Shown: positions 152-18,414, numbered from the stretch's first letter. The stretch is 21,128 bases of DNA from a virus (IMGVR_UViG_3300010391_000211:1-21128); one strand, 5' to 3'. Program-made: numbers and translations. The notes: a model not told the origin generated them from the letters alone.

Positions 152-238
152 CCGTAGGCCGTAGGGCATAGGGCGTAGGCCGTAGGGGGCAGGCCGTAGG
201 GCTTGTCCTGCGCCCTACGCCCTACTCCCTACGCCCTT
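152..238. repeat. CGTAGGG-type heptamer array, inverted pair
   Basis: Seven consecutive heptamers (CCGTAGG, CCGTAGG, GCATAGG, GCGTAGG, CCGTAGG, GGGCAGG, CCGTAGG; 152-200) are followed by a 10-base spacer and four heptamers in the opposite orientation (CGCCCTA, CGCCCTA, CTCCCTA, CGCCCTT; 211-238). The two arms can pair into a long imperfect hairpin. The array fills much of the 215-bp gap between the genes at 142 and 358. I see no gene or promoter in the rest of the gap (239-357). Confidence 0.9.
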
Positions 239-357
239 CCTCAGCATCGCCGCTCAGAGGCCCGCGGCCATCCGTGGCCACAGGCCGCCGAGCGGCGGCC
301 CCGGCGGAGGTCATTTGCCGAAACACGCCGGGGCGCGCCGCGCCGGGAAAGGATGTT

Positions 358-600
358 CTACTGTGCCGCCACCGGACCGGGCTTGCTGCCGGCGGGGGCG
401 TCGCCGACGATCTCGATGAAGCTCTCGCCGTAGGCCTCCGCCTGCCCGCGCGTGATGATCGCCTCGGTGGCGGTGAGCTTCTTGCCGCTGACGGCCGGGG
501 CCATGCGGACCCCGCCGACGCAGATGGCCCGAAGGACCTTGACTTTGACCAATTGCTTCATGTCCGGCTTGGCTTGCTCTGTCTTGGTTGGCTCTGCCAT
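358..600 (-). CDS. small late (head/connector-type) protein
   Basis: An 80-residue protein with ATG at 600 and a clear AGGAGA binding site 5 bases upstream. After a charged, probably disordered N-terminus (residues 1-15) there is a beta-rich segment, VKVLRAICVGGVRMAP, then KLTATEAIITRGQAEAYGESF. This layout is like the short proteins often found just after capsid genes in tailed phages, which bind the head or its completion site; that is analogy, not a family match. It lies in the leftward late operon, 8 bases downstream of the 67-residue gene. The Pro/Ala/Gly-rich C-terminus looks disordered. Confidence 0.7.
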   Translation of the reverse strand: MAEPTKTEQAKPDMKQLVKVKVLRAICVGGVRMAPAVSGKKLTATEAIITRGQAEAYGESFIEIVGDAPAGSKPGPVAAQ

Positions 601-608
601 GTTGTCTC

Positions 609-812
609 CTAGCTGCTAGTTGCCTGGTTGACTCGTTGACTCGTTGACTCGTTAACTCGCGACGGTCGCCGTTGGCTGGCCCGCCACAGCAGGGCCTTGG
701 CGACTTGCAGGCCGGCGATCTCACGATCCAAGGCATCCCGGCGGGCAATCAGCCCCGCCAACAACTTGCCGTGGCGCTCTCTTGTCGCTCGGTCGCGTGC
801 TGCCTTGCCCAT
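609..812 (-). CDS. small coiled-coil protein with repeat-encoded tail
   Basis: A 67-residue protein starting at ATG 812, with GAGGAG 6 bases upstream. Residues 1-48 are strongly helical and charged (ARDRATRERHGKLLAGL, then ARRDALDREIAGLQ), consistent with a short coiled coil. The last residues (RVNESTSQRVNQ) are encoded by the octamer array at 625-656, so the repeat has been read through and lengthened the protein. I recognise no family. Position between decoration-like and small head genes suggests a structural or assembly role, which is inference only. Confidence 0.6.
   Translation of the reverse strand: MGKAARDRATRERHGKLLAGLIARRDALDREIAGLQVAKALLWRASQRRPSRVNESTSQRVNQATSS
625..656. repeat. 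GTTRAC octamer array, 4 copies
   Basis: TGGTTGAC, TCGTTGAC, TCGTTGAC and TCGTTAAC stand head to tail. The array lies inside the 3' end of the 67-residue gene and is translated in the one open frame. It belongs to the same NNGTTRAC family as the arrays at 829-868 and 18375-18414. Confidence 0.9.
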
Positions 813-828
813 CGGATGCTCCTCTGCG

Positions 829-868
829 TGGTTGACTGGTTAACGGGTTAACCGGTTAACGAGTCAAC
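829..868. repeat. GTTAAC octamer array, 5 copies
   Basis: TGGTTGAC, TGGTTAAC, GGGTTAAC, CGGTTAAC, GAGTCAAC. The GTTAAC core is palindromic. The array occupies most of the gap between the decoration-like gene (stop at 875) and the 67-residue gene (start at 812). It carries TAA or TGA in several frames on either strand, so it would stop read-through translation. Confidence 0.9.
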
Positions 869-874
869 CGGCCG

Positions 875-2281: not shown

Positions 2282-2305
2282 TGTCGTTTCCTCTTGCAAT
2301 CAGCC

Positions 2306-2427: not shown

Positions 2428-2459
2428 GCAATCTCTATTCAGTTTTTCCGAACGCTCTT

Positions 2460-2483
2460 CCTACGCCCTACGCCCTATGCCCT
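2460..2483. repeat. CCTACGC heptamer array, 3 copies
   Basis: CCTACGC, CCTACGC, CCTATGC, then a degenerate CCTGCTC, ending 2 bases before the capsid stop codon. In the leftward reading direction it carries TAG stops directly after the capsid gene. Confidence 0.85.
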
Positions 2484-2485
2484 GC

Positions 2486-3823
2486 TCACGCGTGCGTGAT
2501 GCCCGTGACGATCGCCGAGGCGTCCGCCTCCTGGATGTCCAGGTGCATGATGCCGCGGACGGCCGTCATGTCGCTCTCGAACAGCACCTGGTCGCTGCGG
2601 GCGATCTCGATGTCCCGCACCATGCCGACCAGGTGGCTCATGCGGAGGTTGCCGAAGAAGGCGTACTTCGCGGCGGTCGTGATGGTGCCCGCCGCCGGCA
2701 TCCTCGGGCAGACGGTGAACGGGAAGTCGTCGATCGTCGCCGGCAGGCCGTCGCCCCCGCGCCGGAAGAGCGGCGGGGCGTTCAGGTCGGCCGTGGTCCG
2801 CAGGGACCGCATGTAGCCCAGGACCGACAGGGACATGCCCCATCGGGCCTCGGCCAGGGCGTAGGCCACCGGCAGGTTGCCCACGATCTCGGAGATGTCC
2901 GTGCCGGTGATCTCCGTCAGCGTGTCGTGGTCGGCGGCGGCGGCGGGGACCACGGCGGCGATGTGGGCCGATTGCAGGATGCCGGTGATCCCGCCGTAAT
3001 CGCTCGACCCGTCGCCGTTGACCAGGGCGTCGTCTATGCTCTTGGCCATGGCATGGACGATCTCCATGCCCAGGAAGTTGCCCAGGTCCACCAGCAGCGA
3101 GGACCTATTGAACTCGTTCGGGTAGGCCAGCAGCACCATGAGCTTCTCGGGCGTCAGGCTGACCAGCTCGAAGGTGGGCGCCGTCCGCGTGGGGGCGGCG
3201 GCCGGGGACGTCCAGTAGGCCGTCAGGCCGCCGGTCCGCTTGGGGATCTTCGTGGTGCCCAGCGTCAGCAGCGGTATCCGCCGGCAGAGCGGGAACAGCA
3301 CTCCCTCGGCCTCCACGTTGCGGATGATCTCCGGCCGGAACTCATCGGGGATCAGGTATCCGCCGGCCCCCGGCGTGCCGGGGTCCATGTCCGCCTTCAC
3401 GGCATCGGCGATGGCCTTGACGAACGGGGGGCAGTCCTCGCCCCGGCCGAGCAGGCTCAGGCTCCGCTCGGCCATGAAGCCCGCGAACCGCCGGGCCGTG
3501 TCGTCGGTCATAAAGCACCGGCCGTCCGCCAGCATCTCCTTGCGGGCCGACAGGCCGCCGGGGATGAGCACGGCGTTGTCCCGCACGCTCAGACCCAGCC
3601 GCTGGAACTTGCGCACCGCGTCGGCCTGGGCGTCCAGGTCCTTGCGGACCTGCGCCAGTTCGGCGCGCGCCTTGCCGACGTCCAGCGCGCCCTTGGCCTC
3701 GTCGGTGGCCAGGTAATCGTTTGCGTCCTTGAGGGTCTTGGCCAGCTCGCCCTCGTTGCGTTTCTCAGGCGACAGGGCCAGCATCGCCATCATCGCCGTG
3801 AGCATTCTGATGATCTTTTCCAC
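2486..3823 (-). CDS. HK97-fold major capsid protein
   Basis: A 445-residue phage major capsid protein (Phage_capsid family, HK97 fold). The N-terminal ~95 residues are helical and charged (LAQVRKDLDAQADAVRKF), as expected for the delta/scaffold domain that the prohead protease removes. The shell domain follows, with GGYLIPDEFRPEIIRNVEAE, TKIPKRTGG, EKLMVLLAYPNEF and a C-terminal FGNLRMSHLVGMVRDIEIARS segment typical of the family. I chose the GTG at 3823 because GGAGAACAAC gives a Shine-Dalgarno 6 bases upstream; a GTG at 3835 would swallow that site. The protease and portal genes lie upstream, the usual HK97 order. Capsid proteins of Mu itself belong to a different gene set, so this head module is a mosaic choice for a Mu-like phage. 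Confidence 0.9.
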   Translation of the reverse strand: MEKIIRMLTAMMAMLALSPEKRNEGELAKTLKDANDYLATDEAKGALDVGKARAELAQVRKDLDAQADAVRKFQRLGLSVRDNAVLIPGGLSARKEMLADGRCFMTDDTARRFAGFMAERSLSLLGRGEDCPPFVKAIADAVKADMDPGTPGAGGYLIPDEFRPEIIRNVEAEGVLFPLCRRIPLLTLGTTKIPKRTGGLTAYWTSPAAAPTRTAPTFELVSLTPEKLMVLLAYPNEFNRSSLLVDLGNFLGMEIVHAMAKSIDDALVNGDGSSDYGGITGILQSAHIAAVVPAAAADHDTLTEITGTDISEIVGNLPVAYALAEARWGMSLSVLGYMRSLRTTADLNAPPLFRRGGDGLPATIDDFPFTVCPRMPAAGTITTAAKYAFFGNLRMSHLVGMVRDIEIARSDQVLFESDMTAVRGIMHLDIQEADASAIVTGITHA

Positions 3824-3835
3824 GTTGTTCTCCAC

Positions 3836-3870
3836 AGGGCGTAGGGCGTAGGGCGTAGGGCGCAGGGCGC
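3836..3870. repeat. AGGGCGT heptamer array, 5 copies
   Basis: AGGGCGT three times, then AGGGCGC twice, a perfect 7-bp period. It fills the gap between the protease stop (3886) and the capsid ribosome binding site. Read leftward, it runs directly into the GGAGAACAAC site of the capsid gene. Confidence 0.95.
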
Positions 3871-3885
3871 CCGTTCGCCGCCGGC

Positions 3886-4818
3886 CTATGGCCCGGTCGA
3901 ATAACCAAGTGCCGCCAGGACCTTCCCGGCGATCGCTATGAGCTCCTTGCCCTTGGGCCCTTCTCCCGCTGCCGTGGCGGCGTCATCGACGATGGGCTGG
4001 AGCTCTATGTGCTCGTCGGAGCGGCCGCCGTAGGTGTCCGGGAGGAGGGCCTTCAATTCGTCTATTTGGTCCGTGAGGAAAGTTCGCAGTTCGTCCGCCT
4101 TCGTGGAGGCCTCCACGGATAGCGCTGTTTGCAGGTCCGCCACAGCCTTAATGACCGGGGCGCACAGGGCCCCGGCGAGCTTCTCGATGTCGGCCTGGCT
4201 GCCGGCGGCGCCGCCCGTGCCAAAAAACTTGGCGGCGAGCTCCTGAAGGCTCTCCCGGTTGGACGGGGCCATCACGGCGGAGATCTCGACCAGTTCGATC
4301 TCCGTGTAGACGCGGACCCAACTATCGTCCTTCAGGCCCGCGGCGGCGAAGACGGGCTTCAGATCCGGCATCTCCTTGGCGATGTCCGCCGCCGACCCGC
4401 TGATGTAACGTATCGGGATGAATCCAATCGAAAACGCGATGCCCTTGCCCGCCGGGTCGCTGGCGAGCATCCACCACTGGTCGGCCAGGTCCGTGGCGGC
4501 GAACTTGAAGGTACACCGCACTCGCTCGGCCTCGACGACCATGGCCGTCACCCAGCCGATCTGCGTGGGCAAGCCGTCCCCGGCCCTGTGCATGTGGGCC
4601 GCGCCGAACGGGGCGTTGCTCGCCAGGAACCGCCCGGCGCGGGCTTTGAACGCGGCGGGCAGGATGACCTCCCCCTCGCGGTCCAGGTTGATCGTGCTGG
4701 CCGCCCCGGTGATCGTCCGGCCGGGCAGGTCGATGCCCTTTTGCGCCTCGCTGAAACCCCTGACAAAGCGCCCTTGCGCGTCGTTTGAACTGCGTTGTAT
4801 TTCGCCTTTTTCAAGCAT
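3886..4818 (-). CDS. HK97-type prohead protease
   Basis: A 310-residue serine protease of the HK97 prohead protease family (peptidase S78/U35, herpes-assemblin-like fold), which cleaves the capsid delta domain during maturation. Visible motifs: His75 or His77 in the FGAAHMHRAG segment, Ser130 in AFSIGF, and the conserved LVEISAVMAPSN strand at 177-188. The C-terminal ~120 residues (for example KADELRTFLTDQIDELKALL) are helical and may act as scaffold. ATG 4818 overlaps the end of the portal-MuF gene by 8 bases, suggesting translational coupling; no strong ribosome binding site is seen. A longer reading from 4929 would be an upstream extension into the portal gene and is less likely. Confidence 0.88.
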   Translation of the reverse strand: MLEKGEIQRSSNDAQGRFVRGFSEAQKGIDLPGRTITGAASTINLDREGEVILPAAFKARAGRFLASNAPFGAAHMHRAGDGLPTQIGWVTAMVVEAERVRCTFKFAATDLADQWWMLASDPAGKGIAFSIGFIPIRYISGSAADIAKEMPDLKPVFAAAGLKDDSWVRVYTEIELVEISAVMAPSNRESLQELAAKFFGTGGAAGSQADIEKLAGALCAPVIKAVADLQTALSVEASTKADELRTFLTDQIDELKALLPDTYGGRSDEHIELQPIVDDAATAAGEGPKGKELIAIAGKVLAALGYSTGP

Positions 4819-7354
4819 GTCGATTTTCGCTTTCCGCTTGTGGTTCCGTCGCCGCGTCCCCGCGTCCCCGCGTCGCCGCGCCAGGGAGATCGTCATAGCT
4901 GACGAACTGGTAGCCGTCGTACGATGCAAAACCGGGGGCCTTCCCCTCCGCCGCCCGGCGCGCCAGCGAGAGGCACTGGCAATTGATGATCTCCGCCGCC
5001 GGCCCGGCCGGGTCGCGCGGATACATCAGCGCCGCGCCGTTGATGATGTAGGGTTGGTCGATGGGGTGGCCGCCGGCATACGCCGCCTCCGCGGCCACGT
5101 GGGCGGGCCGGCGCTCCCCCGCGCCCCGCGAGTGCAGCCAGACCTTGACGGTCATCCCCGCCGCCCGCTGGCCGGTGTGGCGGGACTGGCTGAGTGCCTG
5201 GCCCACGGTGTTGCGGGCGATGGTCATCGCCCGCGCGCGGGAGACGCTCATGCTCGATTGCACGCGTGTGGCGAGTTTGCGGTAGTCCTCACCGGCGGCC
5301 AGGCCCTCGGTGAGTTCGCGGCGCACGTGCTCCCGCGTGCGGAGGTCCGCAATGGTGGTCACCCGGATGGTCTGGTCGGCGATGGCGGCGATGATGCGGG
5401 GGTTGCTCAGCAGCTCCCGCACGGCCGTGTCCAGGGCGTCGCCCTTCAGGCCCGCCTCGGCGAGCGCCTGGCGAAGGCCGAGGGCGTTGGCGTCCCGGAC
5501 GAACATCCGCATCCGGGCGCGAAAACGCTCTTTGTCCTTGGGGTCCTGAAACACATCGACGAGTATCCTCCCAACAATCCCGTCGTCTTTGGCGGAAGAA
5601 GGCACTTGGCACTTGGCACTTGGCCGGGAGCCAGTGGCATCCTCTCCGCGTCTCCGCGTCTCCGCGTCATCTTTGCCGGGCGGCAGCTCGCGCTTCAGTG
5701 CCGCCAACACGCGGCGCTCCAATTGCACGACGCGCAATCGCAGCGGCTGCGCCGTCCGCTTCGCCAGGCCGTTCCAGGACGCCGCCCATGCTTTCCAAAT
5801 TCTCTCGGCGATCGCTTTCTCCGCGTCGCCGCGTCCCCGCGTCCCCGCGTCTTTCTTCCTCTCCGCGTCTCCGCGTCCCCGCGTCCCCGCGTCCTCTTCC
5901 GCAACGGGCTGTTCACCCGCCGGGGCTTGGGGCGGCTGACCCTCCGGCAGGGCCGGGAACACATCCCCCGCCGCCACGTCGGCTGCCGGCAGCAGGCCGG
6001 CCGGCAGGAAGCCCTGGCCGTGCCAGGGCCGGTCCGGCAGGCCGAGGTCTAGATAATCGTTCAAGTCGGCCAGGGGCACGCCCATGCCGAAGTACTTCGC
6101 CGCCGTGTCCGTCTGGCTGCGCCGGAGCTTCTGGAAGAGCGGGACCTGCTCCACGTCCCACCATGCCTCCAACCGCGTGTCAAATCGGGGCGCGATCTCG
6201 TTGTTGATGGGCGTGGCCATCGCCTCCAGGAGCGGCACCATCGTGTCCTGCCAAAACCGTTCCTGTTCAGCGTCCACGTAGGCCGATGCGTCGCCCTTGC
6301 TGGCCACGAACCCCGCCACCGACGGCGGCACGCGGAGGACGGCGCAGACCTCCTCGCGATTGAGCTGCTTGCCCAGCGGGTACACCATGTCGCTCAGCGT
6401 GTGGCCGTGGTCGACGTACTTCAGGCCGCCCCAGAGGATGGCCAGGCTGTTTGCGTTGGCCGCCCCGCGGTGGCGCTGGAGCCAGGTGCTCCGCATCGCC
6501 GAGTCCTTGTCGGCGTCGAAGGGGGCGTCGGTGCCCAGCACGGTGCCCGGCTCGCAGTTGTTGGCGAACATGGCGGCGTTGTGCAGGCTGGCGTTGTAAT
6601 CCGCGACGATCGCCAGCCGCGCGGGGTCGCGCGGGGACAGGCCGCCGTTGGGGTCGTCGGGGTCGAACCGCTGGATCGTTATGCACTCATCGAGGGCCAC
6701 CGGCACGCGCCCGCCCTTGGGGCCGGAGATTTCCCAGCCTATCAGCTCCTCCTCCAGGCGGCCGCTGCGGGTGACCGCCTTGGACCGGCGGCCGGGGATG
6801 CAGTACATGGTGACCGGCCGGCGGCCGATCATGTCGTCGAACACCCAGTGGACGCGCCCGCAGATGTCCAGCAGCGTCGTCGTGGCCTCGATGAACTGGC
6901 CCCAGGTCTGCCGCGCGTTGGGCCGTGCCAGGAACGTATACAGGTCGCCGGATGCGACTATCTCCCCCTCGGCGGCTCGGTGCAGTTCCATGGCCTTGCT
7001 GAGGTATTTCCTCCCCGCCGGCCTGCCCGTCCGCACGGCGCGGCTGCCCCACGCCCCTCGGGTCCCGAGCGCCTCAGCGACCGACAGGCGAAGGGGCACG
7101 CGGGCGGCGTTGGTCGCCTTGGCCCGGATGCAGGCGTAGAACCAGACGCTCTGCCGGTACGGGTTGGCCGGCCCGCCTATGCCGCCGCCGGCGCCGCTCA
7201 TGGCGGCGTCGGCCCCGGCCAGCCACAGCCTGGACCAGCCGGACAGGGACGCCTTCTCGGCTGGCAGTTCGGCCAGCGTCATCTGGCCCGCCGGGATCTG
7301 CCCGTAAGGGCCGACGATGCTCGGCTCTTCAAATTTGCAATCTGCAATCTGCAA
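4811..7354 (-). CDS. portal protein fused to MuF-type head morphogenesis protein
   Basis: An 847-residue fusion. Residues ~60-460 are an HK97-type portal (YRQSVWFYACIRAKATNAARVPL, then LGKQLNREEVCAVLRVPPSVAGF and DAEQERFWQDTMVPLLEA). The last ~250 residues are a Mu gpF-like minor head domain (VSRARAMTIARNTVGQALSQ, a KVWLHSRG segment and a terminal EIINCQC). The joining linker, residues ~487-580, is largely encoded by CCGCGTCC and GGCACTT repeats and reads as DAGTRGRGDAE-type repeats, as does the extreme C-terminus. The start is uncertain: TTG 7354 has AGGA 8 bases upstream, but sits inside a heptamer array; ATG 7282 is the alternative. It begins just after the terminase stop. Portal-MuF fusions are known in other phages; the protein would form the dodecameric portal with attached internal head domains. 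Confidence 0.88.
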   Translation of the reverse strand: MQIADCKFEEPSIVGPYGQIPAGQMTLAELPAEKASLSGWSRLWLAGADAAMSGAGGGIGGPANPYRQSVWFYACIRAKATNAARVPLRLSVAEALGTRGAWGSRAVRTGRPAGRKYLSKAMELHRAAEGEIVASGDLYTFLARPNARQTWGQFIEATTTLLDICGRVHWVFDDMIGRRPVTMYCIPGRRSKAVTRSGRLEEELIGWEISGPKGGRVPVALDECITIQRFDPDDPNGGLSPRDPARLAIVADYNASLHNAAMFANNCEPGTVLGTDAPFDADKDSAMRSTWLQRHRGAANANSLAILWGGLKYVDHGHTLSDMVYPLGKQLNREEVCAVLRVPPSVAGFVASKGDASAYVDAEQERFWQDTMVPLLEAMATPINNEIAPRFDTRLEAWWDVEQVPLFQKLRRSQTDTAAKYFGMGVPLADLNDYLDLGLPDRPWHGQGFLPAGLLPAADVAAGDVFPALPEGQPPQAPAGEQPVAEEDAGTRGRGDAERKKDAGTRGRGDAEKAIAERIWKAWAASWNGLAKRTAQPLRLRVVQLERRVLAALKRELPPGKDDAETRRRGEDATGSRPSAKCQVPSSAKDDGIVGRILVDVFQDPKDKERFRARMRMFVRDANALGLRQALAEAGLKGDALDTAVRELLSNPRIIAAIADQTIRVTTIADLRTREHVRRELTEGLAAGEDYRKLATRVQSSMSVSRARAMTIARNTVGQALSQSRHTGQRAAGMTVKVWLHSRGAGERRPAHVAAEAAYAGGHPIDQPYIINGAALMYPRDPAGPAAEIINCQCLSLARRAAEGKAPGFASYDGYQFVSYDDLPGAATRGRGDAATEPQAESENRHA
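4846..4880. repeat. CCGCGTCC octamer array in portal-MuF C-terminus
   Basis: Four or so octamers (CCGTCG.., CCGCGTCC, CCGCGTCC, CCGCGTCG) are translated on the minus strand as part of a TRGRGDAATE tail. It is the same family as 5643-5666, 5819-5893, 8800-8831, 13211-13244 and 15691-15722. Confidence 0.85.
5601..5624. repeat. GGCACTT heptamer array in portal-MuF linker
   Basis: Three perfect GGCACTT units plus GGCC, translated in-frame in the linker (segment AKCQVPSSAK). Same family as 10226-10314. Confidence 0.9.
5643..5666. repeat. TCTCCGCG octamer array in portal-MuF linker
   Basis: Three perfect octamers, translated in-frame as a DAETRRRGE-type segment, only 19 bp from the GGCACTT array. 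Confidence 0.9.
5819..5893. repeat. two CCGCGTCC octamer blocks in portal-MuF linker
   Basis: Blocks at about 5819-5851 and 5860-5893, four octamers each, are separated by an 8-base TTTCTTCC-like spacer. They encode two copies of DAGTRGRGDAE exactly where the portal domain ends. Confidence 0.9.
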
Positions 7355-7361
7355 TCTGCAA
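7334..7361. repeat. TCTGCAA heptamer array, 4 copies
   Basis: TTTGCAA, TCTGCAA, TCTGCAA, TCTGCAA at the terminase-portal junction. On the minus strand it reads TTGCAGA, contains no stop in any frame, and supplies the candidate TTG start of the portal gene. Confidence 0.9.
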
Positions 7362-7365
7362 TTCC

Positions 7366-8778
7366 TCAGACGGTAACGAACGGCTCGGCGTACCGGATAG
7401 CCCCGGCCTTCAGGGCCAGGCCGGCGCTGTAGGCGATGTCGCAATGGCTCTCGGCCAGGAGCGGGTTCTCGCTCTCCACCAGCCGGAGCGTCTTGTCGTC
7501 CGCGCCGCGTTCCTTCTGCACGGCGTAGATGTCCGTGGCGATGTTCTTGTAAGGGCCGTCGACGGGCGGTATGAGCTGCTCGCCGTCATTGAACGCGGTC
7601 GCGAGCAGCGACCCAACCTCCCTCTTGCCGGCACTGGTGAACGTATGCGGCAGCCAGCGCTCGGGGTACCTGGTGGCCAGCGTCTCGTTGCTGTCCATGC
7701 CCAGGCCCGTGGCGTCCCCCGCGCCCACGGCGGCGGCGCCGGCGTCCATCGCCTCGCAGATGATCGTCCGCTGGAGGGCGAACTGCGTCTTGTGCATGAG
7801 GACCAGGTATCGCAGGGCCTTGGGCTGGTTGGGGCGGGCAATGTTGATCCACAAGGGCGACAGGTCCGTGTGGCGGGCCACGTCCCAGCCGATCTCCGGC
7901 CGGCCCTGTATCTTCCGCAGGGCGGCGAACAAGCCGCTCTTCCAGCCCGCCCCCGCCTGCACGCGGAGGAAGTCGAACGGCAACTTCTCCTCCGCGAAGC
8001 GCTGGCCGGCATTGACCAGTTCGCCCCACTTGACCAGGGCTTCCAGGTCGCCGGTGAACTGGCAGAGGTACTCGCGCTCCCATCCGGCCTGGTCGCCGTA
8101 GAGGTCCTTGAACGCCTCGATGGACATCGGCCGGCCGTCCTCGCCCGTCAGGGGCATCCCCTCCGCCACGGCCTGGAAGATGTCCACGAAGTGCACGCTG
8201 TAGAGGTCCTTGGCGCTGAACAGCTCGAACGCCTTGTGGTTCTTGCCGCGCGGCGTCGTGATGACGACGACCTTGAACCCCCGCGTGCTCAGCGGGAAGA
8301 TCACCCGCCAGTGGTCGTACCCGCCGCCGGGGAACAGGGAGAACTCCGTGAATATGATGTTGCCCGTCAGCCCGGCCAGGTTGTCCGGGTCGCGGCCAGG
8401 CAGGGCCGTCACCGACCCGCCCCCCGGCAGGTGCAGCGTGCGGGCGGTGCAGCGGAATGCCTCGTCGATCTCGCTGTCGTAGTCCAGGTATTCCTGGCCG
8501 TCTTCGGCGGTGATCGACCCGGCCAGCCGGAAGGCCTCCTTGAACGCCTTGGCCACGGTCTTGCACTTGGCGAAGGTCTCGTCGGCCTGGCGCTGGGTCT
8601 TGGAGACGATGTACCATTTCTGGTGCGTGCGGATGGCGTCGTCGACGGCCTTGCACGAGGCGGTGAAGTCCTTGCCCGCCTGGCGGCACCAGATGACCAC
8701 CTGCACCCTGTGCTCGTCGGCGAACAGCCGCCGCTGGTAGGGGTACAGGCGTATCACGCTGTCGGCAGTCGCTACCAC
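7366..8778 (-). CDS. phage terminase large subunit (Mu gp28-like)
   Basis: A 470-residue DNA-packaging motor protein. ATPase features: Walker A-like WCRQAGKDF (about 31-39), Walker B-like NIIFTEFS (about 140-147, with Thr-Glu where Asp-Glu is usual), and a coupling-type ITTPRGKN (about 173-180). The C-terminal RuvC-like nuclease has plausible catalytic Asp299 (GWDVARHTD), Asp355 (AGDATG) and Asp447 (SHCDIAYSAGLAL). I prefer GTG 8778, which has AAAGGA 5 bases upstream; ATG 8832 is possible but would start in the octamer array and has almost no spacer after its AGGG. The preceding gene is the gp27-like partner, as in Mu. The changed Walker B residue is unusual but occurs in divergent terminases. 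Confidence 0.88.
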   Translation of the reverse strand: MVATADSVIRLYPYQRRLFADEHRVQVVIWCRQAGKDFTASCKAVDDAIRTHQKWYIVSKTQRQADETFAKCKTVAKAFKEAFRLAGSITAEDGQEYLDYDSEIDEAFRCTARTLHLPGGGSVTALPGRDPDNLAGLTGNIIFTEFSLFPGGGYDHWRVIFPLSTRGFKVVVITTPRGKNHKAFELFSAKDLYSVHFVDIFQAVAEGMPLTGEDGRPMSIEAFKDLYGDQAGWEREYLCQFTGDLEALVKWGELVNAGQRFAEEKLPFDFLRVQAGAGWKSGLFAALRKIQGRPEIGWDVARHTDLSPLWINIARPNQPKALRYLVLMHKTQFALQRTIICEAMDAGAAAVGAGDATGLGMDSNETLATRYPERWLPHTFTSAGKREVGSLLATAFNDGEQLIPPVDGPYKNIATDIYAVQKERGADDKTLRLVESENPLLAESHCDIAYSAGLALKAGAIRYAEPFVTV

Positions 8779-8799
8779 GTCTTTCCTTTTGCCTTTTCG

Positions 8800-8831
8800 C
8801 CGCGTCTCCGCGTCGCCGCGTCTCCGCGTCA
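8800..8831. repeat. CCGCGTCT octamer array before terminase
   Basis: About four octamers (CCGCGTCT, CCGCGTCG, CCGCGTCT, CCGCGTCA) lie between the gp27-like stop (8838) and the preferred terminase start (8778). If the upstream ATG 8832 is used, they encode an Arg-rich N-terminus. Confidence 0.88.
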
Positions 8832-8837
8832 TTTGCC

Positions 8838-11898: not shown

Positions 11899-12222
11899 AT
11901 GCGGAAAAGCCGCCAATCTTCTGACAACACGAACGCTTCCGCCATTCTACGCGAGGCCGGCAATTCCGTCAAGGGGGCAATCATCGCGGCGGGACTCAGC
12001 CTGACGGACGTCTGCCGGGCCGCAAAGATTTCCAATCCCAAGCTCAGCGGCCTGCTGAACGGGGCCAGCCGCAACTGGCAGCGCCAAGTCCTCGTATGGG
12101 CCGCCTTTCGCCTCCTGGCGGGCAGTAAGAGCCAGGCCACCCTGGAGGAGTTCTGGGGAGCGCTCCTGAAGGACTCGCGAGTCGCGAGTCGCGAGTCGCG
12201 AATCAAGGAGGGCGGCAGGTGA
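11899..12222 (+). CDS. Cro/Ner-like HTH protein
   Basis: A 107-residue first gene of the early operon, divergent from the repressor. Residues ~20-60 form an HTH: IIAAGLSLTDVCRAAKIS, then NPKLSGLLNG as recognition helix. The position matches Mu Ner or lambda Cro, which damp repressor and early transcription. The last residues (DSRVASRESRIKE) are encoded by the GTCGCGA heptamer array at 12172-12211 and look like an added tail. The start ATG 11899 lacks a strong ribosome binding site. Its stop overlaps the GTG of the next gene (GTGA). Confidence 0.7.
   Translation: MRKSRQSSDNTNASAILREAGNSVKGAIIAAGLSLTDVCRAAKISNPKLSGLLNGASRNWQRQVLVWAAFRLLAGSKSQATLEEFWGALLKDSRVASRESRIKEGGR
12172..12211 (+). repeat. 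GTCGCGA heptamer array ending in Shine-Dalgarno
   Basis: GA, then CTCGCGA and three GTCGCGA units, then ATC and AAGGAGG, which serves the GTG start at 12219. The whole 40-nt module recurs at 15832-15871 with four differences, in the same reading frame of the upstream gene and again supplying the next gene's ribosome binding site. Confidence 0.9.
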
Positions 12223-12500
12223 TCGGCGCGGAGCAATGCATTTCCTATGACCAGATGGCCGGACGGATCATCGCCGACGCCCAGCGGCACTTCGATCGCC
12301 TCTACCCCCCGGTCCCGCGCAAGCAACTGGACGAAGTATCGATGGACCTCCTGGCGGGGGTCGTCATTCGCCTGCTCGTATGCGTACAGGTCCTTCAAGC
12401 ACGGATTGATCGGTTGAATGACTCCAGCCCCGGCAAGCGGCGGGGCCGGCCCGCCGAAGCCTCGGCGAAGGCGGGCGACCCGCCCATCGTGCCACTATGA
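12219..12500 (+). CDS. hypothetical early protein
   Basis: A 93-residue protein from GTG 12219, set by AAGGAGG 7 bases upstream and a 4-base overlap with the HTH gene. The middle is helical (LDEVSMDLLAGVVIRLLVCVQVLQARIDRLN), too polar to be a certain membrane helix. The C-terminus RPAEASAKAG is encoded by a GCCCGCC...GGCGGGC palindromic element (12449-12476). I recognise no family. As the second gene of the early operon it may be a small regulator or host-takeover protein, but nothing in it says so. Confidence 0.65.
   Translation: MIGAEQCISYDQMAGRIIADAQRHFDRLYPPVPRKQLDEVSMDLLAGVVIRLLVCVQVLQARIDRLNDSSPGKRRGRPAEASAKAGDPPIVPL
12449..12476. repeat. in-frame GCCCGCC palindromic element, copy 1
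   Basis: GCCCGCC-GAA-GCC-T-CGGC-GAA-GGCGGGC, 28 bp, able to form a hairpin with paired GAA/GAA internal mismatches. It is translated as PAEAS within the 93-residue gene. A second 29-bp copy lies at 13353-13381 in another gene, in the same frame. Confidence 0.85.
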
Positions 12501-13017: not shown

Positions 13018-13446
13018 ATGCCACAGGCTCCTCAAATCGAAAATCGAAAATCGAACATCGTACATCGTTCCGACGTCCAGGCCATCCAGGGCCGCCTGGC
13101 CCCCGGCGAGCGGATCCTCTGCGGGAACGTGGACATCGAGTTCGCCCCCGGCCCGGACGGGGACATCCTTATTACTGTCGGCGCACGCGGCGCCGAGACG
13201 AGCATCCGCCTCTCCGCGTCCCCGCGTCTCCGGGTCCCCGCGTCGATCTGCTTCATGGCCCGCGTCGAGCCTGGCGGGCACTACCCGTGCGTGCAGCGGC
13301 TGCTGCCTTGCGCCCCACAGAACGCCCGCGCCGCCGGCAGGCAGACCGTGCAGCCCGCCGAAGCCTCCGGCGAAGGCGGGCCGCTGCTGTCGATCGGCCA
13401 GGGCGACTACACGCGTCATTTTTACCCGTCCGATTTCGCGCCGTGA
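13018..13446 (+). CDS. hypothetical early protein riddled with repeat inserts
   Basis: A 142-residue protein from ATG 13018, with AAAGGA about 11 bases upstream; ATG 12976, overlapping the previous gene, is the alternative. The recognisable unique parts are GRLAPGERILCGNVDIEF, an ILITVGARG strand region and the C-terminal GDYTRHFYPSDFAP. Three repeat elements are read in-frame: AAATCGA heptamers at residues ~6-17, CCGCGTCC octamers near 65-76 (SASPRLRVPAS), and a GCCCGCC palindrome near 112-121. About a third of the protein is thus repeat-derived. No family is recognised. Its stop lies in the first heptamer of the array before the transposase. Confidence 0.6.
   Translation: MPQAPQIENRKSNIVHRSDVQAIQGRLAPGERILCGNVDIEFAPGPDGDILITVGARGAETSIRLSASPRLRVPASICFMARVEPGGHYPCVQRLLPCAPQNARAAGRQTVQPAEASGEGGPLLSIGQGDYTRHFYPSDFAP
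13034..13068. repeat. AAATCGA heptamer array, 5 copies
   Basis: AAATCGA x3, then ACATCGT x2, perfect 7-bp period, at the 5' end of the 142-residue gene and translated in-frame. The unit contains no stop in any forward frame. Confidence 0.9.
13211..13244. repeat. CCGCGTCT octamer array inside a coding region
   Basis: About four octamers (TCTCCGCG, TCCCCGCG, TCTCCGGG, TCCCCGCG) are read in-frame as SASPRLRVPAS in the 142-residue gene. Confidence 0.88.
13353..13381. repeat. in-frame GCCCGCC palindromic element, copy 2
   Basis: GCCCGCC-GAA-GCC-TCC-GGC-GAA-GGCGGGC, 29 bp, symmetric, translated as PAEAS in the 142-residue gene. See copy 1 at 12449-12476. Confidence 0.88.
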
Positions 13447-13498
13447 CCTATGACCTGCGCCCTATGACCTACGCCCTACGCCCTGTGACCTATGACAC
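13443..13498 (+). repeat. 8-unit heptamer array spanning stop and transposase start
   Basis: GTGACCT, ATGACCT, GCGCCCT, ATGACCT, ACGCCCT, ACGCCCT, GTGACCT, ATGACAC: eight exact 7-bp steps. The upstream gene's TGA (13444-13446) lies in unit 1 and the transposase ATG (13492) opens unit 8, so the whole intergenic gap is repeat. Units mix the CGTAGGG and GGTCATA families, which differ by two bases. Confidence 0.95.
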
Positions 13499-15906
13499 AC
13501 GCAGCGGCACAAATCATTGCCCCCTCCGCGACGCCCCAGGCGCCCGCCCGATGGTTCACCGTCAACGAGGCCGCCGGGGTGCTGGGCCTCACAGCCAGCC
13601 GCGTCCGCCAGATGTGCCGCGCGGGGGAGTTGACGGCCCGCCAGGAGCTTTCCCCGAGCGGCAGCGGTGAGTGGACGATCGACCCCGATTGCCGCCCCGC
13701 CCTGCGGATCGCGGCCGGGGGCCAGTTGATAGCGGCCCCCGCCGACGATCCGCTGAGCGGCCTGACCGCCGCCAAGCGGGCCGTCATCCATCGCCGCTAC
13801 CAGGCCGTGCGGGAGCTTCAGGCCGCCCTGGACGCCAGGCCCGCCGCCCTGGGCGCCGATGAGTTCCTCCGGCTGTGGGCGGCGGCGTGGTCTGTCCGCC
13901 GGCAGATGGCGGGCGAGCCGGGCGTGAGCGCCTCGACGCTCTACAACTGGCAGCGCCGGTTCCGCTCCGGGGGCATCGCCGGCCTCATCGACCGTCGCCG
14001 CTACGCCGGCCCCATCGCCGCCGTGGGCGAGGAGGCGTGGAGCGCGTTTTGCGGCCTGTACCTGGACCAGGCCGCCCCGCACATTCCGCGGCTGTGGGAA
14101 CGCGTCGCGGCCCTCGCCGCCGGCCACCCCGGCGACCAGCAGTGGGCCTGGCCCGGCCTGCGGACGATACAGCGGTGGGTCGCGCAAAAGCTCCCCGCGC
14201 CCCTGCTGGCGGCCGGGCGAGATCCCAAACGGTTCCGCGACCGCTGCCTGCCGTGGATCTCACGCGACTGGTCTGGCGTCCCGGCGATGGGCTGCTGGGT
14301 GGGCGACCACAGGCAGCTGGACGTCCTGTGGCCCCGCCTGGTCGTGGCGGAGAAAAAGGGCGTCAAGTCGCTCGCCTGGAAATGGTACCGCCCCTGGCTC
14401 ACCGGCTGGCTGGACGCCCGGTCGTGGTTCCTGCCGGCCTGGGACATGCGCTTCGCCAGCCCGGACGGCCAGCAGACGATGGGATCGTTCATACGCGGAG
14501 TGGCCCGCCACGGCCAGCCGGAGGCGGTGTACATAGACAACGGCAAGGACTTCCGCATGGGCCGTTTTGCCGGCGGGCGGCGCGGTAGGGCAGGTTTCCA
14601 ACCTGCCGGCCAGATCGTCGCGGAGAAGCACGTCAAGCCGATCCTCCAAATGCTCGGCATCGAGGCGTATTTCGCGACGCCGTACAACGCCAAGGCCAAG
14701 GTCATCGAGCCGTGGTTCAAGCTCATGGCCGAGTGGTTCGACAAGACCTGGCCGACCTATTGCGGCCGGTCGCCCGGCCACAGGCCCGAGCGGCTGGATA
14801 AGTTCTTCCGCCACGGCGGCGGGGAATCCGCCGAGGCGTACGCCAGGGGCGTCCTCGGCGAGGCGTACAGCCGCGTGATGCTCCTGGCTGATCCCCTCGA
14901 CCAGGACAGGCGGGACGAACTGACTATAGGCCCCCTGAAGGCGGCGTTTGAACGCTGGTTAACGGACGATTACGCCCTTCGCCAAAGCCCCTGCCAGTGG
15001 GCGGGCGGCCTGTCGGCGGGGAGGGCCTTCGCCGAGCTTCGGCGCGAGGGCCACCAGGTCCGCCGGCCGGCCACAGACACGCTCATGCTGCTGCTCATGC
15101 CGTCCGTGCCCGTCTGCGTGGGGCCAAAGGGCGTCTACGTCCGGGCCTTCGGGATGTACTACTGGCACCAGGCCCTAGAGAGCCGCGCGTGCGCCAGCGG
15201 GCGGGATCTCCGCCGCAAGGTCGTCTACCGCTACGACCCCGCCGACTCCGGCCAGATTGTGGTCTACGACGCTCAAACGGATCGGTTCCTGTGCATAGCC
15301 AGGCCGCACGCCTCCAACGGCATCCCGGCGATCGTCGCCGAGGGCGACGCGGACAACCAGGAGCGGCTGTCCGCGGCGATCGAACTCCAACGACACATGG
15401 CCAGGCGATACAACAAGGAAGTGAAGGGCCTCCGTCAGGCGGCCGGCGAGGCCGTCAACGGACTACTGAGCTCATCGCGTTCGGCGGCGCGGGCACTGGG
15501 CCTGTTAGATACCGGCCCCGGGGCGGCGGTCGTGGCATCCGCCGCCCCCGCCCCCGCCGCACAGATCATCTACTCGGCCAACCACGACCTGGCCTCGCGC
15601 GCCCTGGCCCGCGTGCGGGCGGACCGCGCGAGCGAGCGGGAGGCCTCGCAACTGGCCGCCCTGGCGGCCACGGGCACTGACGGAAGCGATGCGGAGACGC
15701 GGAGACGCCGAGACGCGGGGATACGCGAGCGGCAACAGCCCCTGCCGAGCAGTCTGAGCCTGCTCCGCGGATGCGATGACGACACTGAGGAAGCGGACGG
15801 ATCGCCGAGCACGGGCAGGGAGGCCCCTTTTGATTCGCGAGTCGCGAATTGCGAGTCGCGAATCGAGGAGGCCCCCGATGGACAGCAACCGACTCAGCAC
15901 GATTGA
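13492..15906 (+). CDS. MuA-like DDE transposase
   Basis: An 804-residue transposase that pairs phage ends and joins them to target DNA for replicative transposition. Residues ~21-50 are an excisionase-like HTH (WFTVNEAAGVLGLTASRVRQ). A second HTH lies near 140-165 (SASTLYNWQRRFRSGG), then the RNase H-like core with Asp272 (VGDHRQLDV), Asp349 (YIDNGKDF) and Glu406 (AKVIEPWFK). The D-D-E spacing of 77 and 57 is close to MuA, and a Mu-type C-terminal domain follows. The ATG lies inside a heptamer array without a Shine-Dalgarno. An in-frame palindrome adds RAGFQPAG between Asp349 and Glu406. The C-terminus (about 733-790) is lengthened by octamer and heptamer repeats. MuA is 663 residues, so about 140 are extra. 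Confidence 0.93.
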   Translation: MTHAAAQIIAPSATPQAPARWFTVNEAAGVLGLTASRVRQMCRAGELTARQELSPSGSGEWTIDPDCRPALRIAAGGQLIAAPADDPLSGLTAAKRAVIHRRYQAVRELQAALDARPAALGADEFLRLWAAAWSVRRQMAGEPGVSASTLYNWQRRFRSGGIAGLIDRRRYAGPIAAVGEEAWSAFCGLYLDQAAPHIPRLWERVAALAAGHPGDQQWAWPGLRTIQRWVAQKLPAPLLAAGRDPKRFRDRCLPWISRDWSGVPAMGCWVGDHRQLDVLWPRLVVAEKKGVKSLAWKWYRPWLTGWLDARSWFLPAWDMRFASPDGQQTMGSFIRGVARHGQPEAVYIDNGKDFRMGRFAGGRRGRAGFQPAGQIVAEKHVKPILQMLGIEAYFATPYNAKAKVIEPWFKLMAEWFDKTWPTYCGRSPGHRPERLDKFFRHGGGESAEAYARGVLGEAYSRVMLLADPLDQDRRDELTIGPLKAAFERWLTDDYALRQSPCQWAGGLSAGRAFAELRREGHQVRRPATDTLMLLLMPSVPVCVGPKGVYVRAFGMYYWHQALESRACASGRDLRRKVVYRYDPADSGQIVVYDAQTDRFLCIARPHASNGIPAIVAEGDADNQERLSAAIELQRHMARRYNKEVKGLRQAAGEAVNGLLSSSRSAARALGLLDTGPGAAVVASAAPAPAAQIIYSANHDLASRALARVRADRASEREASQLAALAATGTDGSDAETRRRRDAGIRERQQPLPSSLSLLRGCDDDTEEADGSPSTGREAPFDSRVANCESRIEEAPDGQQPTQHD
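14589..14607. repeat. in-frame palindrome in transposase catalytic domain
   Basis: GGCAGGTT-TCC-AACCTGCC, a perfect 8-bp stem with a 3-base loop, preceded by GTAGG. It is translated as part of RAGFQPAG, in the loop between the second Asp and the Glu of the active site. Confidence 0.85.
15691..15722. repeat. GCGGAGAC octamer array in transposase C-terminus
   Basis: GCGGAGAC, GCGGAGAC, GCCGAGAC, GCGGGGAT: four octamers, the inverse orientation of the CCGCGTCT family, read in-frame as DAETRRRRDAG. Confidence 0.88.
15832..15871 (+). repeat. GTCGCGA heptamer array ending in Shine-Dalgarno, copy 2
   Basis: GA, TTCGCGA, GTCGCGA, ATTGCGA, GTCGCGA, ATC, GAGGAGG. It encodes DSRVANCESRIEE at the transposase C-terminus and its GAGGAGG, 6 bases before ATG 15878, is the ribosome binding site of the ATPase gene. 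Aligned with 12172-12211 it differs at four positions over 38 repeat-and-SD bases. Confidence 0.9.
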
Positions 15907-17026
15907 ACTGATGAGGAGAACGGCGGCGATGACCACGGAAGGCGCGGAACATTTCAGCGACATACAGCGACGGGAGATCATCGACGCCCTGGTCAGGATC
16001 GCCAGGGCCGACCGGCTGAGCAACCGCTTCCTGGCGCGGTCCGTCCTCCAGGGCTCCGCGCCGACCTGGACGCTGATCCGCCAGGGCAAGTACGCCGGCA
16101 ACACGGACAAATACCTCCGGCGCGCCCAGCGTTGGCTGGCCGATCGGGTCAGCCGCGCCCAGGCCCCGGCGGCGTCGTATGTCCAGACCTCCATCGGCGA
16201 GGCCGTGCAGAAGGTCTGCCACCGCGCCTGGGAGATGCCCTGCATGGCGCGGATCGTCACCCCCAGCGGGGCGGGCAAGACGGCCGCCCTGCTGGAATAC
16301 GTCCGGCGCAACCCCGACCGGCGGCACTACCTCCAGGCGGGCCAGGCCCTGTCCAGTCCGCGCGGCCTCCTGGCGGAACTGGCCGACAAGCTCGGCGCGG
16401 ACTACGCCATGAGCCAGACCACGCCGGAGCAATATCGGCGGATCCGCAAGCGGCTCGCGGAACTCTACGCCGGCGGCACGGGCGACCCGGTGATCGTCGT
16501 GGTCGACGAGGCCACCACGCTGACGCCGCCGGCGTTGAACATCCTCCGCAACCTGCACGACGATCCGGCCTGCCGCCTGGCGGTGGTCCTGGCCGACACG
16601 TGGAGGCTGGACGCCGAGCTCCGCCGCCCGGCGGGCATGGCCGGCGGATACGAGCAGCTCCGGTCCCGCTTCGGCGCGACGCTGGCCATGTCGGCCCAGG
16701 AGGAGATTTCCCGCGCCGACGTGGCGGCCGTGGCCGGCGGGGTCCTGGCGGCCGTGGGGTTCGATGGCAGGCTGCACGCCGACGCCGCGCGATACCTGCA
16801 CCGCCTGGCCCAGGGCGACGGCAAGCTGCGCAACGTGGTACATCGCATCCAGGCGGTCCACGCCGTGGCCGAGGACCTCCAGATAGAGCCGGAGTACTCC
16901 GTCGCCCAACTGGACTACGTGGCCGACCTGGTGGGCGCCGAGCGCGAGATGCGGCATACCGTCTGTCCATTTGGCCAGGCCGGCGAGCGGCAACAGCCGG
17001 CGGGCAACAGACAGCAAGTGGCGTGA
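15878..17026 (+). CDS. MuB-like AAA ATPase, transposition target factor
   Basis: A 382-residue ATPase. Walker A is TPSGAGKTA at 128-136; Walker B is VIVVVDEAT at 205-213, with Asp210-Glu211; a sensor-type LADTWRLD follows. The N-terminal ~110 residues contain an HTH-like segment (LSNRFLARSVLQGSAPTWTLI), as in MuB, whose N-terminal domain binds DNA. MuB forms ATP-dependent filaments on target DNA, stimulates the transposase and gives target immunity. ATG 15878 is chosen for its GAGGAGG; it overlaps the transposase 3' end by 29 bases in another frame, implying coupling. A longer form from 15776 would be an upstream extension across the repeat. The Gln-rich tail (ERQQPAGNRQQVA) is probably disordered. 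Confidence 0.9.
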   Translation: MDSNRLSTIELMRRTAAMTTEGAEHFSDIQRREIIDALVRIARADRLSNRFLARSVLQGSAPTWTLIRQGKYAGNTDKYLRRAQRWLADRVSRAQAPAASYVQTSIGEAVQKVCHRAWEMPCMARIVTPSGAGKTAALLEYVRRNPDRRHYLQAGQALSSPRGLLAELADKLGADYAMSQTTPEQYRRIRKRLAELYAGGTGDPVIVVVDEATTLTPPALNILRNLHDDPACRLAVVLADTWRLDAELRRPAGMAGGYEQLRSRFGATLAMSAQEEISRADVAAVAGGVLAAVGFDGRLHADAARYLHRLAQGDGKLRNVVHRIQAVHAVAEDLQIEPEYSVAQLDYVADLVGAEREMRHTVCPFGQAGERQQPAGNRQQVA

Positions 17027-17073
17027 CGGAAGAAGGTCATAGGCCGGAAGAAGGTCATAGGTCATAGGTCGCA
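17027..17073 (+). repeat. GGTCATA heptamers plus an 18-bp repeat
   Basis: CGGAAGAAGGTCATAGG occurs at 17027-17043 and 17045-17061 (18-bp period). It passes into GGTCATA heptamers at 17053, 17060 and a degenerate 17067. The array starts the base after the ATPase stop. It carries TAG stops in the forward direction. Confidence 0.88.
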
Positions 17074-17112
17074 GAACGGAAACCCCTGAGACCTGTGACC
17101 TTGGAGATGAGC

Positions 17113-17730
17113 ATGGATGCCGAACTGGCGAATTGCGAGAAGCCCGCCTGCGGAGAGCCGGTATACGCCAAGGGCTTCAATTTGTGCCTGATGCACTTTA
17201 ACGAGGACCGCAAACGCCGCCTGGCGGCGGCACCGAGTGACCCGCCAACGGAAAGGAACGAACCCATGCCGAGATCCAAGGATTCCTGCCGCGTCCCCGG
17301 CTGCACCAACGCGGCCGCCAACCGGGGCATCTGCACCTCCTGCTACTACCACGCCAAGAAGGCCGGTCCGCGCGGCGACAAGGTCCGCGCCGCCATGCTC
17401 CCCAGCAAACGGGCGCCGAAGGCCGACCGCCTCGCCGGCGGGGCGCTGGACGATGACGAGAACCTCGGCCGCATGGCCGGCGCCAAGGCACTCCGCAAGC
17501 AGGCGGAGGATGCCGGGATATCGATCGACGACGTCCCTCGCCAGGCCATAGCCGCGGAGGTCATCCAGACATGCCGCGAGCTGTGCCAGGCTCTGGGCGT
17601 GTCGGTGATCGACAGGCCCGGCGGCGGCTTCTACGCCCTGGCCGCCGGGGTGCATCACGGGCAACTCGCCGAGGTGACCGAACTGGCCATGGTCTATCAG
17701 GCGAACATCACGAGGAAGGCTGGCGCGTGA
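17113..17730 (+). CDS. double zinc-finger early protein
   Basis: A 205-residue protein from ATG 17113, with GGAG 6 bases upstream. It has two similar metal sites: Cys8-x4-Cys13-x11-Cys25-x2-His28 and Cys59-x4-Cys64-x9-Cys74-x2-Cys77, each with a G-x-C turn as in small phage zinc fingers. The C-terminal half is a separate alpha/beta domain (AIAAEVIQTCRELCQALGVSVID). Between the fingers, ATG 17266 has its own AAAGGA site 8 bases upstream, so a shorter one-finger product may also be made, or the gene may be a fusion of two. It follows the transposition genes; nucleic-acid binding is likely, the exact role unknown. Confidence 0.7.
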   Translation: MDAELANCEKPACGEPVYAKGFNLCLMHFNEDRKRRLAAAPSDPPTERNEPMPRSKDSCRVPGCTNAAANRGICTSCYYHAKKAGPRGDKVRAAMLPSKRAPKADRLAGGALDDDENLGRMAGAKALRKQAEDAGISIDDVPRQAIAAEVIQTCRELCQALGVSVIDRPGGGFYALAAGVHHGQLAEVTELAMVYQANITRKAGA

Positions 17731-17928
17731 ATGGACGCCCAGGCCGTCAGGCAGCGGCTGAAGGAACTAGTGGCCCAAAGCGGCGACCGCCGCCGGGCCA
17801 TGCTCCTAATGCGATACGCGGACGGCTTCACCGACGCGGAGGTCGCCGCCGTCATCGGCGAGCCGGCCGAGGCGGTGACCAGAGAACTGGCAACGGCCAT
17901 CGAGGACCTCAAATGGGCGCTTCGCTGA
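17731..17928 (+). CDS. stand-alone sigma70 region 4-like HTH protein
   Basis: A 65-residue protein whose ATG directly follows the previous stop, with AGGAAGG upstream. It reads RRAMLLMRYADGFTDAEVAAVIGEPAEAVTRELATAIEDL, the pattern of sigma70 region 4 (bulk Arg-Tyr-x-(D/E)-G, then E-[IV]-A...V...L..A...L), with no region 2. Such small proteins can recruit or modify RNA polymerase. Mu uses Mor and C to turn on middle and late genes, and no Mor/C homologue is visible here, so this is a candidate substitute; that is inference. It could equally be an ordinary small HTH repressor. Confidence 0.7.
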   Translation: MDAQAVRQRLKELVAQSGDRRRAMLLMRYADGFTDAEVAAVIGEPAEAVTRELATAIEDLKWALR

Positions 17929-18137
17929 AACTAAAACGATTGCAGGCGAGCTTCAACGTAATCCGCCTCACCCGCGTCCGCGCCCGCCATGCCTGGTGTG
18001 GGCGGTGGCGGCTCCCGGATCGGTCACTCGTATTTGCCCCGAACGCCCGCACGCGGCGCAGGGCCGTCCAGGCGGCAATCGCCATGGCTACGGCCATGCA
18101 GGACGCCCTGATTGTGCCATCGCGGATCTGGCTGTGA
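17913..18137 (+). CDS. small basic protein
   Basis: A 74-residue protein beginning MGASLKLKRLQASFNVI. ATG 17913 overlaps the end of the sigma-like gene by 16 bases and has GAGGA exactly 6 bases upstream, inside that gene. The sequence is rich in Arg (RLTRVRARHAWCGRW, NARTRRRAVQ) with one hydrophobic helix (AAIAMATAMQDALIV). No family recognised. Coupling to the sigma-like gene suggests a shared job. Confidence 0.6.
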   Translation: MGASLKLKRLQASFNVIRLTRVRARHAWCGRWRLPDRSLVFAPNARTRRRAVQAAIAMATAMQDALIVPSRIWL

Positions 18138-18148
18138 ACGGCGGGTCA

Positions 18149-18232
18149 TTGGACTGTGGACTGTTCGGCTGTTGGGCGCCGCGAGGCGAGCCGTTTTTGC
18201 TATGCCCAACAGTCGAACAGTCCACAGCCCAA
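18149..18232. repeat. 29-bp inverted repeat (long hairpin)
   Basis: Left arm 18149-18177 (TTGGACTGTGG...TTGGGC) and right arm 18204-18232 are complementary at 27 of 29 positions, with one of the rest a G-T pair; loop 26 bases. The arms contain GGACTGT heptamers. It lies in the only large gap of the early operon (18138-18423, 286 bp). No T-tract follows, so a plain intrinsic terminator is unlikely; RNA processing, attenuation or a small RNA are possible. Confidence 0.85.
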
Positions 18233-18374
18233 TAGTCCAACAAGGCCATCAGAATGCTTGCATCAGGAAAGGCTTGGCGATGAAGCGGTGATCTCGACCA
18301 AGGTCATGCGCGGGTTTTGCCCAAATTGCCCGATGGCCCGGCCCCGCGACGGTCGCGGGGCAATGACGATGACC

Positions 18375-18414
18375 CGGTTAACCAGTTAACCGGTGAACCA
18401 GTTAACCAGTTCAC
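18375..18414. repeat. GTTAAC octamer array, 5 copies
   Basis: CGGTTAAC, CAGTTAAC, CGGTGAAC, CAGTTAAC, CAGTTCAC, ending 9 bases before the ATG of the GemA-like gene. That gene itself opens ATGTTAACGAACGG, a degenerate continuation. Same family as 625-656 and 829-868, 17 kb away. Confidence 0.92.

Follow-up and report, generated by a model that had tools for sequence, protein, structure and literature searches.

Tandem arrays of seven- and eight-nucleotide words at gene junctions, protein tails and linkers of a Mu-type transposable phage fragment

Introduction

Why should a small phage genome be punctuated by tandem arrays of many different seven- and eight-nucleotide words? The question belongs to a wider puzzle, namely that words of 7-8 nt are scattered over bacterial genomes, and why their step should be 7 or 8. 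It is raised here by a viral contig of 21,128 bases, an IMG/VR record without a host genome attached, whose whole length we refer to as the window. A preliminary description, made from the DNA sequence alone, had named eight families of exact 7- and 8-bp arrays at some 20 places, had likened them to the STRR repeats of cyanobacteria, and had suggested that they either colonised the phage from its host lineage or are spread by the phage. Phages with known hosts make the origin of the words testable, as the word lists of phage and host can be compared.

Gene content of the window

The window covers part of a transposable phage of Mu type whose head is of HK97 type; the ends of the contig are not defined. 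Its left half encodes, on the minus strand, an HK97-type capsid, a protease-like protein, a portal with a MuF fusion, the large terminase (TerL) and a Gp27-like small terminase (TerS). Near the middle is an S24-type repressor gene, and the right half carries, on the plus strand, a MuA-type transposase accompanied by a MuB-type ATPase (phrog_310, phrog_296 and PF09299), the combination that marks Mu-like transposable phages. No tail genes were recognised in the window. The genes needed for what follows are:

2486-3835, minus strand, HK97-type major capsid gene (PF05065, E 1.1e-39; phrog_10)
3886-4929, minus strand, head maturation protease-like gene (phrog_80, E 3.1e-9)
4811-7444, minus strand, ORF for the portal fused to a MuF-like domain (PF04860, PF04233; phrog_2662)
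7366-8832, minus strand, TerL ORF (phrog_2, E 1.1e-23; 63% identity to phage L196)
13492-15906, plus strand, MuA-type transposase gene, tnpA (phrog_310, E 1.4e-81; PF09299)
15878-17026, plus strand, MuB-type DNA transposition ATPase gene, tnpB (phrog_296, E 1.2e-37; PF13401)

Homology to L196 suggests a true portal start near 7282. HK97-type head genes (2486-9512) occur with a Mu-type transposition module (13492-17026), together with the portal-MuF fusion. A 474-aa ORF at 875-2299 contains two near-identical tandem blocks of ~100 residues (TADLLTSLSVANSGDPN...) and had no match in Pfam or PHROG.

Inventory of the arrays

Arrays were detected with TRF and by self-comparison of the window. All eight families of the preliminary description were recovered at the places it had given, and a ninth, TGGACTG with its inverted partner, had been overlooked. 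That the arrays are exact held for some of them; several are degenerate. Families do recur at dispersed sites as proposed, CGTAGGG for example at five places between 152 and 13496. The arrays are, with the family in brackets where the local word differs:

152-202 and 207-237, CGTAGGG-type heptamer array followed by its inverted partner CCTACGC (CGTAGGG family), intergenic hairpin, folding z -5.1
619-659, octamer array GTTGACTC/GTTAACTC (NNGTTAAC family), C-terminal tail of a small ORF
829-871, palindromic octamer array GGTTAACN (NNGTTAAC family), intergenic, folding z -6.9
2460-2483, CCTACGC heptamer array (CGTAGGG family), immediately beyond the capsid stop codon
3836-3870, CGTAGGG heptamer array, capsid/protease junction
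4847-4880, octamer array CCGCGTCN, portal C-terminal tail, adjoining the protease start
5601-5624 and 5643-5668, GGCACTT heptamers and CCGCGTCT octamers (CCGCGTCN family), one portal linker, in which L196 has a double-hairpin element
5818-5900, two octamer arrays CCGCGTCN, second portal linker, where L196 again has a double-hairpin element
7332-7362, AATCTGC heptamer array (TCTGCAA family), TerL/portal junction
8797-8830, CCGCGTCT octamer array (CCGCGTCN family), TerL/TerS junction
10225-10257 and 10287-10316, GGCACTN array and its inverted partner CCAAGTG (GGCACTT family), hairpin near a small-ORF start, z -6.9
12175-12201, self-complementary TCGCGAG heptamer array (GTCGCGA family), C-terminal tail of a small ORF, z -3.8
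13034-13068, AAATCGA heptamer array drifting into ACATCGT; phage L197 has the same word
13205-13244, octamer array CCGCGTCN, within an orphan ORF
13443-13496, mixed heptamer array CCTATGA/CCTACGC (CGTAGGG family with GGTCATA mixed in), directly ahead of the transposase
15691-15718, octamer array GACGCGGA (CCGCGTCN family), transposase C-terminal tail
15835-15865, heptamer array TCGCGAA/TTGCGAG (GTCGCGA family), tnpA/tnpB junction
17027-17070, GGTCATA heptamer array with an 18-nt duplication, right behind the MuB stop codon
18148-18242, TGGACTG array and its inverted partner CAGTCCA, intergenic hairpin with arms 93% complementary, z -8.7
18370-18419, octamer array GTTAACNN (NNGTTAAC family), just upstream of an ORF at 18424

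Period and placement are non-random

We compared the window with composition-matched third-order Markov copies of itself (n = 60), counting arrays that scored at least p+4. Period 7 accounts for 12 arrays in the window and period 8 for 10, against expectations of 0.07 and 0.02, which rules out chance, as the simulation proposed in the preliminary description was meant to decide. A stricter form of the comparison likewise put both periods well beyond chance. Period 6 is slightly raised (3 versus 0.33), and periods 4, 5 and 9-12 are at chance. Tandem units of 7 and 8 nt are therefore above chance and single words occupy several dispersed sites, both as in STRR-type repeats.

Placement is mainly non-coding. 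Ten of the 22 arrays are mostly intergenic, against 2.0 expected when positions are rotated (P = 0.0014), and most of the others lie in tails and linkers, so that the placement originally noticed is borne out. Conserved coding blocks are avoided: only 3 of the 22 arrays overlap blocks that align with the closest relative, where 10.3 were expected (P = 0.0008), and these three sit within gappy, badly aligned portal linkers or the portal tail. The idea that the octamer peptide DAETRRRG favours one reading frame was dropped, because an 8-mer array gives the same cyclic peptide in every frame of a strand.

Most arrays of the window are single. Three inverted pairs form hairpins with folding z of -5.1, -6.9 and -8.7, and so display the inverted pairing of the global regulator sites proposed for Geobacter metallireducens. 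In the hairpin at 18148-18233 the arms are 93% complementary despite irregular units, which suggests fold-back copying or joint selection. At the Rfam gathering score neither the window nor L196 gave a match. In the sets examined, neighbouring arrays of the same word were inverted in 12 cases and direct in 5.

Related phages carry other fillers at the same sites

Single-protein scans with the transposase and the terminase found no close relatives; a transposase alignment used as query yielded 79 related phage loci. The closest relative, L196, is syntenic with the window (identities of 63% for TerL, 49% for tnpA, 50% for MuB and 48% for the portal) and, at the threshold applied, lacks arrays of 7- or 8-mers. 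Its portal linkers and some of the shared junctions hold two other small repeats instead. One is a double-hairpin palindromic element of ~48 nt, present in five copies with compensatory stem changes. The other is a CCTCTGTGTCCTCTGTGTCTCTGTGGC-like repeat of mixed 8/9-nt spacing at junctions, among them TerL/TerS, where the window has CCGCGTCT. Their positions in L196 are:

1334-1391, 2063-2120, 2273-2330, 7044-7101 and 7887-7944, double-hairpin copies in portal linkers and junctions
231-313, 6349-6387, 9473-9499, 12142-12227, 13352-13392 and 13569-13664, CCTCTGTGTCCTCTGTGTCTCTGTGGC-like repeats

At the TerL/TerS junction, L196 has CTCTGTGT-type repeats, and phage L306 has TTGAACYN octamers. 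As L196 bears other repeats at the same sites, these positions tolerate inserts, with a filler that varies by lineage. The CCTCTGTGTCCTCTGTGTCTCTGTGGC-like repeat corresponds to the window octamer with C/T variation (CTCYGYGT) and resembles the class-2 element of G. metallireducens (TCTCCGTS). A further contig, L449, is identical to L196 across 6.8 kb and also has double-hairpin copies. Mosaic seams were rejected as the origin of the arrays, several of which lie between or inside genes that are syntenic in L196.

The 79 loci contain 52 period-7 arrays against 1.0 expected, and at most 12 for every other period; they are clustered in a small number of phages that each use words of their own. 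A scan with three copies of CCGCGTCN found 31 further stretches in viral contigs, several of which are array-rich and show no recognisable homology to the genes of the window. Two viral contigs without gene homology to each other, L418 and L432, have words in common (AAGACCC/AAGACCT, ACGCGGAG) and are possibly phages of one host. Both contain many inverted array pairs.

Comparing orthologous junctions across related phages, as had been proposed, revealed arrays present in one phage and absent from the other, and words swapped with the register kept. In phages that are ~79% identical, an orthologous junction often retains period and register and has another word in nearly all units: AGACAGG versus AGGCAGA (L210/L263), ACTACTG versus ACTACCA and ACCATCA (L306/L307), and AAAAAAC-like versus AATCGAG-like (L211/L226). 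Elsewhere an array in one phage corresponds to a far shorter spacer in the other, and between L248 and L263 (90% identity) one array is unchanged. Change within arrays is concerted. Together with the presence of one word at many sites, for which pure slippage cannot account, this means that copying between sites must be assumed besides local slippage.

Among 66 perfect CGTAGGG runs from many phyla, start phases were uniform over the seven possibilities (P 0.95), which fits slippage and not the insertion of a fixed module; insertion of fixed units as a general rule was rejected on these grounds. The end phases of the same runs were uneven (P 0.0002).

Prophage words compared with host chromosomes

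Prophages of the TerL group of the window were found in Phycisphaerae, and the phage host is probably a planctomycete bacterium. Of 397 genomes in the class to which G003, a Phycisphaeraceae MAG, belongs, 7 had prophages of this group by TerL. Host contigs were sampled for six genomes (G003, G553, G484, G614, G229 and G454), with prophage and host contigs coming from metagenome bins or draft assemblies; part of the 40-kb prophage region of G484 may be chromosomal, and the phage assignment of the G553 contigs comes from TerL alone.

Two prophages share words with their own host. The host sample contains the word of 6 of 9 prophage arrays in G003 (Fisher P 0.0004) and of 10 of 23 in G553 (Fisher P 0.006), the arrays being not fully independent in either test; matches of these prophages to any other host numbered 0 or 1. 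The host copies of the shared words adjoin genes for glutamate synthase, queuosine synthase, URO-D, cellulase and PQQ-domain proteins, and with such ordinary neighbours they look chromosomal. In G484 only 1 of 9 arrays had an exact match, the ten host arrays sampled being too few for the comparison; octamers prevail in this prophage, at 7 of the 9 and with CCGCGTCN among them, and account for half of the ten host arrays too. Across 12 phages, 44 of 57 identical-word pairs lay within one genome (label-permutation mean 5.5, maximum 17), and the same word recurred within a genome ~30 times as often as between genomes. The earlier idea that repeats of the host lineage entered the phage is thus partly borne out, by proxy, through two related prophages that match almost only their own host. 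When genomes were searched by word, G018, G032, G004 and others shared some of the window words, G004 only CGTAGGG, and no genome examined had the full set.

In G018, an array-rich genome, octamer arrays (L133, L139 and L143) consist of a fixed 7-mer core, CCGYGTC, and one free base, and they often start and finish on a whole core.

Density differs between prophages. Relative to the expectation from host density, arrays were 2.7x enriched in the prophage of G003 (P 0.008), 6.3x in that of G553 (P 1e-11) and 8.0x in that of G484 (P 3e-6). The prophages of G614 and G229 were not enriched, with none or one array although their hosts have some, and that of G454 was too short for the comparison. 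No 10-kb bin of the six host samples reaches the density of the window, which has 22 arrays over its 21 kb; the highest bin count is 6. One guess would be that more rounds of replication lie behind the enrichment.

Origin of the arrays

We consider it probable that a process of the host lineage, slippage in 7-8-nt steps combined with copying between sites, fills the unconstrained spacers of the phage. The arrays would be heptamer and octamer repeats akin to STRR that arise in the host cell, with no phage function producing them. A host enzyme, as we infer, would err in steps of 7-8 nt during DNA synthesis and so expand short words wherever the DNA tolerates it, and words would be copied from site to site, at times by fold-back copying that yields inverted pairs. 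Expansion and word copying would give each host lineage its own changing lexicon, which a resident transposable phage would take up; a compact phage genome tolerates arrays only at junctions, tails and linkers, hence their accumulation there, in some lineages several times more densely than in the chromosome. The window would follow the same rule as its relatives. In favour of this account are the excess of periods 7 and 8, the placement at junctions and linkers, the own-host words of two prophages beside chromosomal genes, the octamers common to the G484 prophage and its host, the genome-specific words, the word swaps at orthologous junctions, the uniform CGTAGGG start phases, the other repeats in the linkers of L196, and the words shared by L418 and L432. 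The single G484 match, the two near-empty prophages, the uneven CGTAGGG end phases, the lack of the window's full word set in every genome examined and the need to assume a copying step speak against it.

The main rival is that the arrays are selected functional sites, with words recurring since a host factor reads them: sites for nucleoid or RNA-binding proteins of the host, hairpin terminators, or translation control between operon genes. Terminator or binding roles are possible, and the strong hairpins of inverted pairs, the fixed CCGYGTC core and single free base of the octamers and the junction positions all suit them, as do the predictions of global regulator sites for the paired 7/8-mer arrays of G. 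metallireducens (PMC2700814) and of translational control sites for TAACTGA arrays (PMC4679880). Selection is nevertheless unlikely as the general cause, given the many different words in a single small genome, arrays inside protein linkers too, words swapped or arrays missing at orthologous junctions, a syntenic L196 without such arrays, and the lack of an Rfam match.

We doubt still more that phages carry and multiply the arrays, with replicative transposition amplifying words and moving them between hosts and host copies being former phages. The denser prophages (three of six genomes), a window richer than any sampled host bin and the patchy occurrence of the same words across phyla favour it; host copies adjoin ordinary chromosomal genes, close phage relatives in other hosts have other words or none, and insertion-like fixed ends are absent. 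The proposal that the phage spreads the repeats gains from three prophages 2.7-8x richer than their hosts and loses from the two that are not. It is similarly improbable that transposable phages act as amplifiers and inter-host carriers of heptamer and octamer words, with arrays growing faster in replicating phage DNA and prophages seeding the host lexicon; if true, this would provide the means of transfer that has so far been lacking for repeats of this type. Chance or an assembly artefact is exceedingly improbable: the window is one metagenome contig and short repeats are error-prone in assembly, yet the excess over the Markov null is large, short and degenerate arrays from many families are involved, and the occurrence of similar ones in many independent assemblies disposes of the artefact envisaged at the outset.

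Orthologous spacers display word replacement with the register kept, and some prophages are hot spots. On the host-lineage reading, an orphan phage rich in arrays should share its words with the chromosome of its host, so that its word list would serve as a clue to that host.

Comparison with known systems

The repeat class itself is known: STRR belong to it, as do further heptamer arrays. TAACTGA repeats of Beggiatoaceae, Cyanobacteria and Bacteroidetes (MacGregor 2015, PMC4679880) are likewise short intergenic heptamer arrays, patchy across phyla, for which horizontal spread was suspected and no transfer mechanism identified; they differ in having one word, mostly just upstream of start codons, and no phage link. 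The multicopy sequences of G. metallireducens (2009, PMC2700814) resemble the window in comprising several families per genome, with 7- and 8-nt units (GTTGCTYN, TCTCCGTS[Y], MTYCTGA) both intergenic and intragenic, and TCTCCGTS is close to the window octamer CTCCGCGT. They are mostly paired on opposite strands, chromosomal, read as IHF/HU-type regulator sites and not reported in phage. Satellites of Burkholderia and Chloroflexus (Satellites in the prokaryote world, 2019, PMC6749651) share units of 6-8 nt and several species-specific scattered families, for which a transposition mechanism was suggested; that work is a chromosomal survey in which phages are not treated. The word 'phage' is absent from the text of PMC4692102, PMC4679880 and PMC6749651, and 'prophage' from PMC2700814. 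Within the open-access literature, the dense, host-matched, multi-family and prophage-enriched state in phages seems undescribed.

The likeness to cyanobacterial STRR that had been proposed fits in kind. STRR and the GGGNATC heptamer arrays of Xanthomonas and Nostoc (Rehm et al. 2015, PMC4692102) also have 7-nt units, few copies per array and many, mostly intergenic sites, with length and sequence varying between relatives and, in Xanthomonas, inverted pairs. A 2007 study, as cited in PMC4692102, found heptamers over-represented in bacteria and proposed a link to the DNA polymerase footprint. No such heptamer arrays occurred on the plasmids examined in PMC4692102. In those systems a single dominant G-rich word per genome occupies the chromosome, whereas the window has many words, of both 7 and 8 nt, in a phage.
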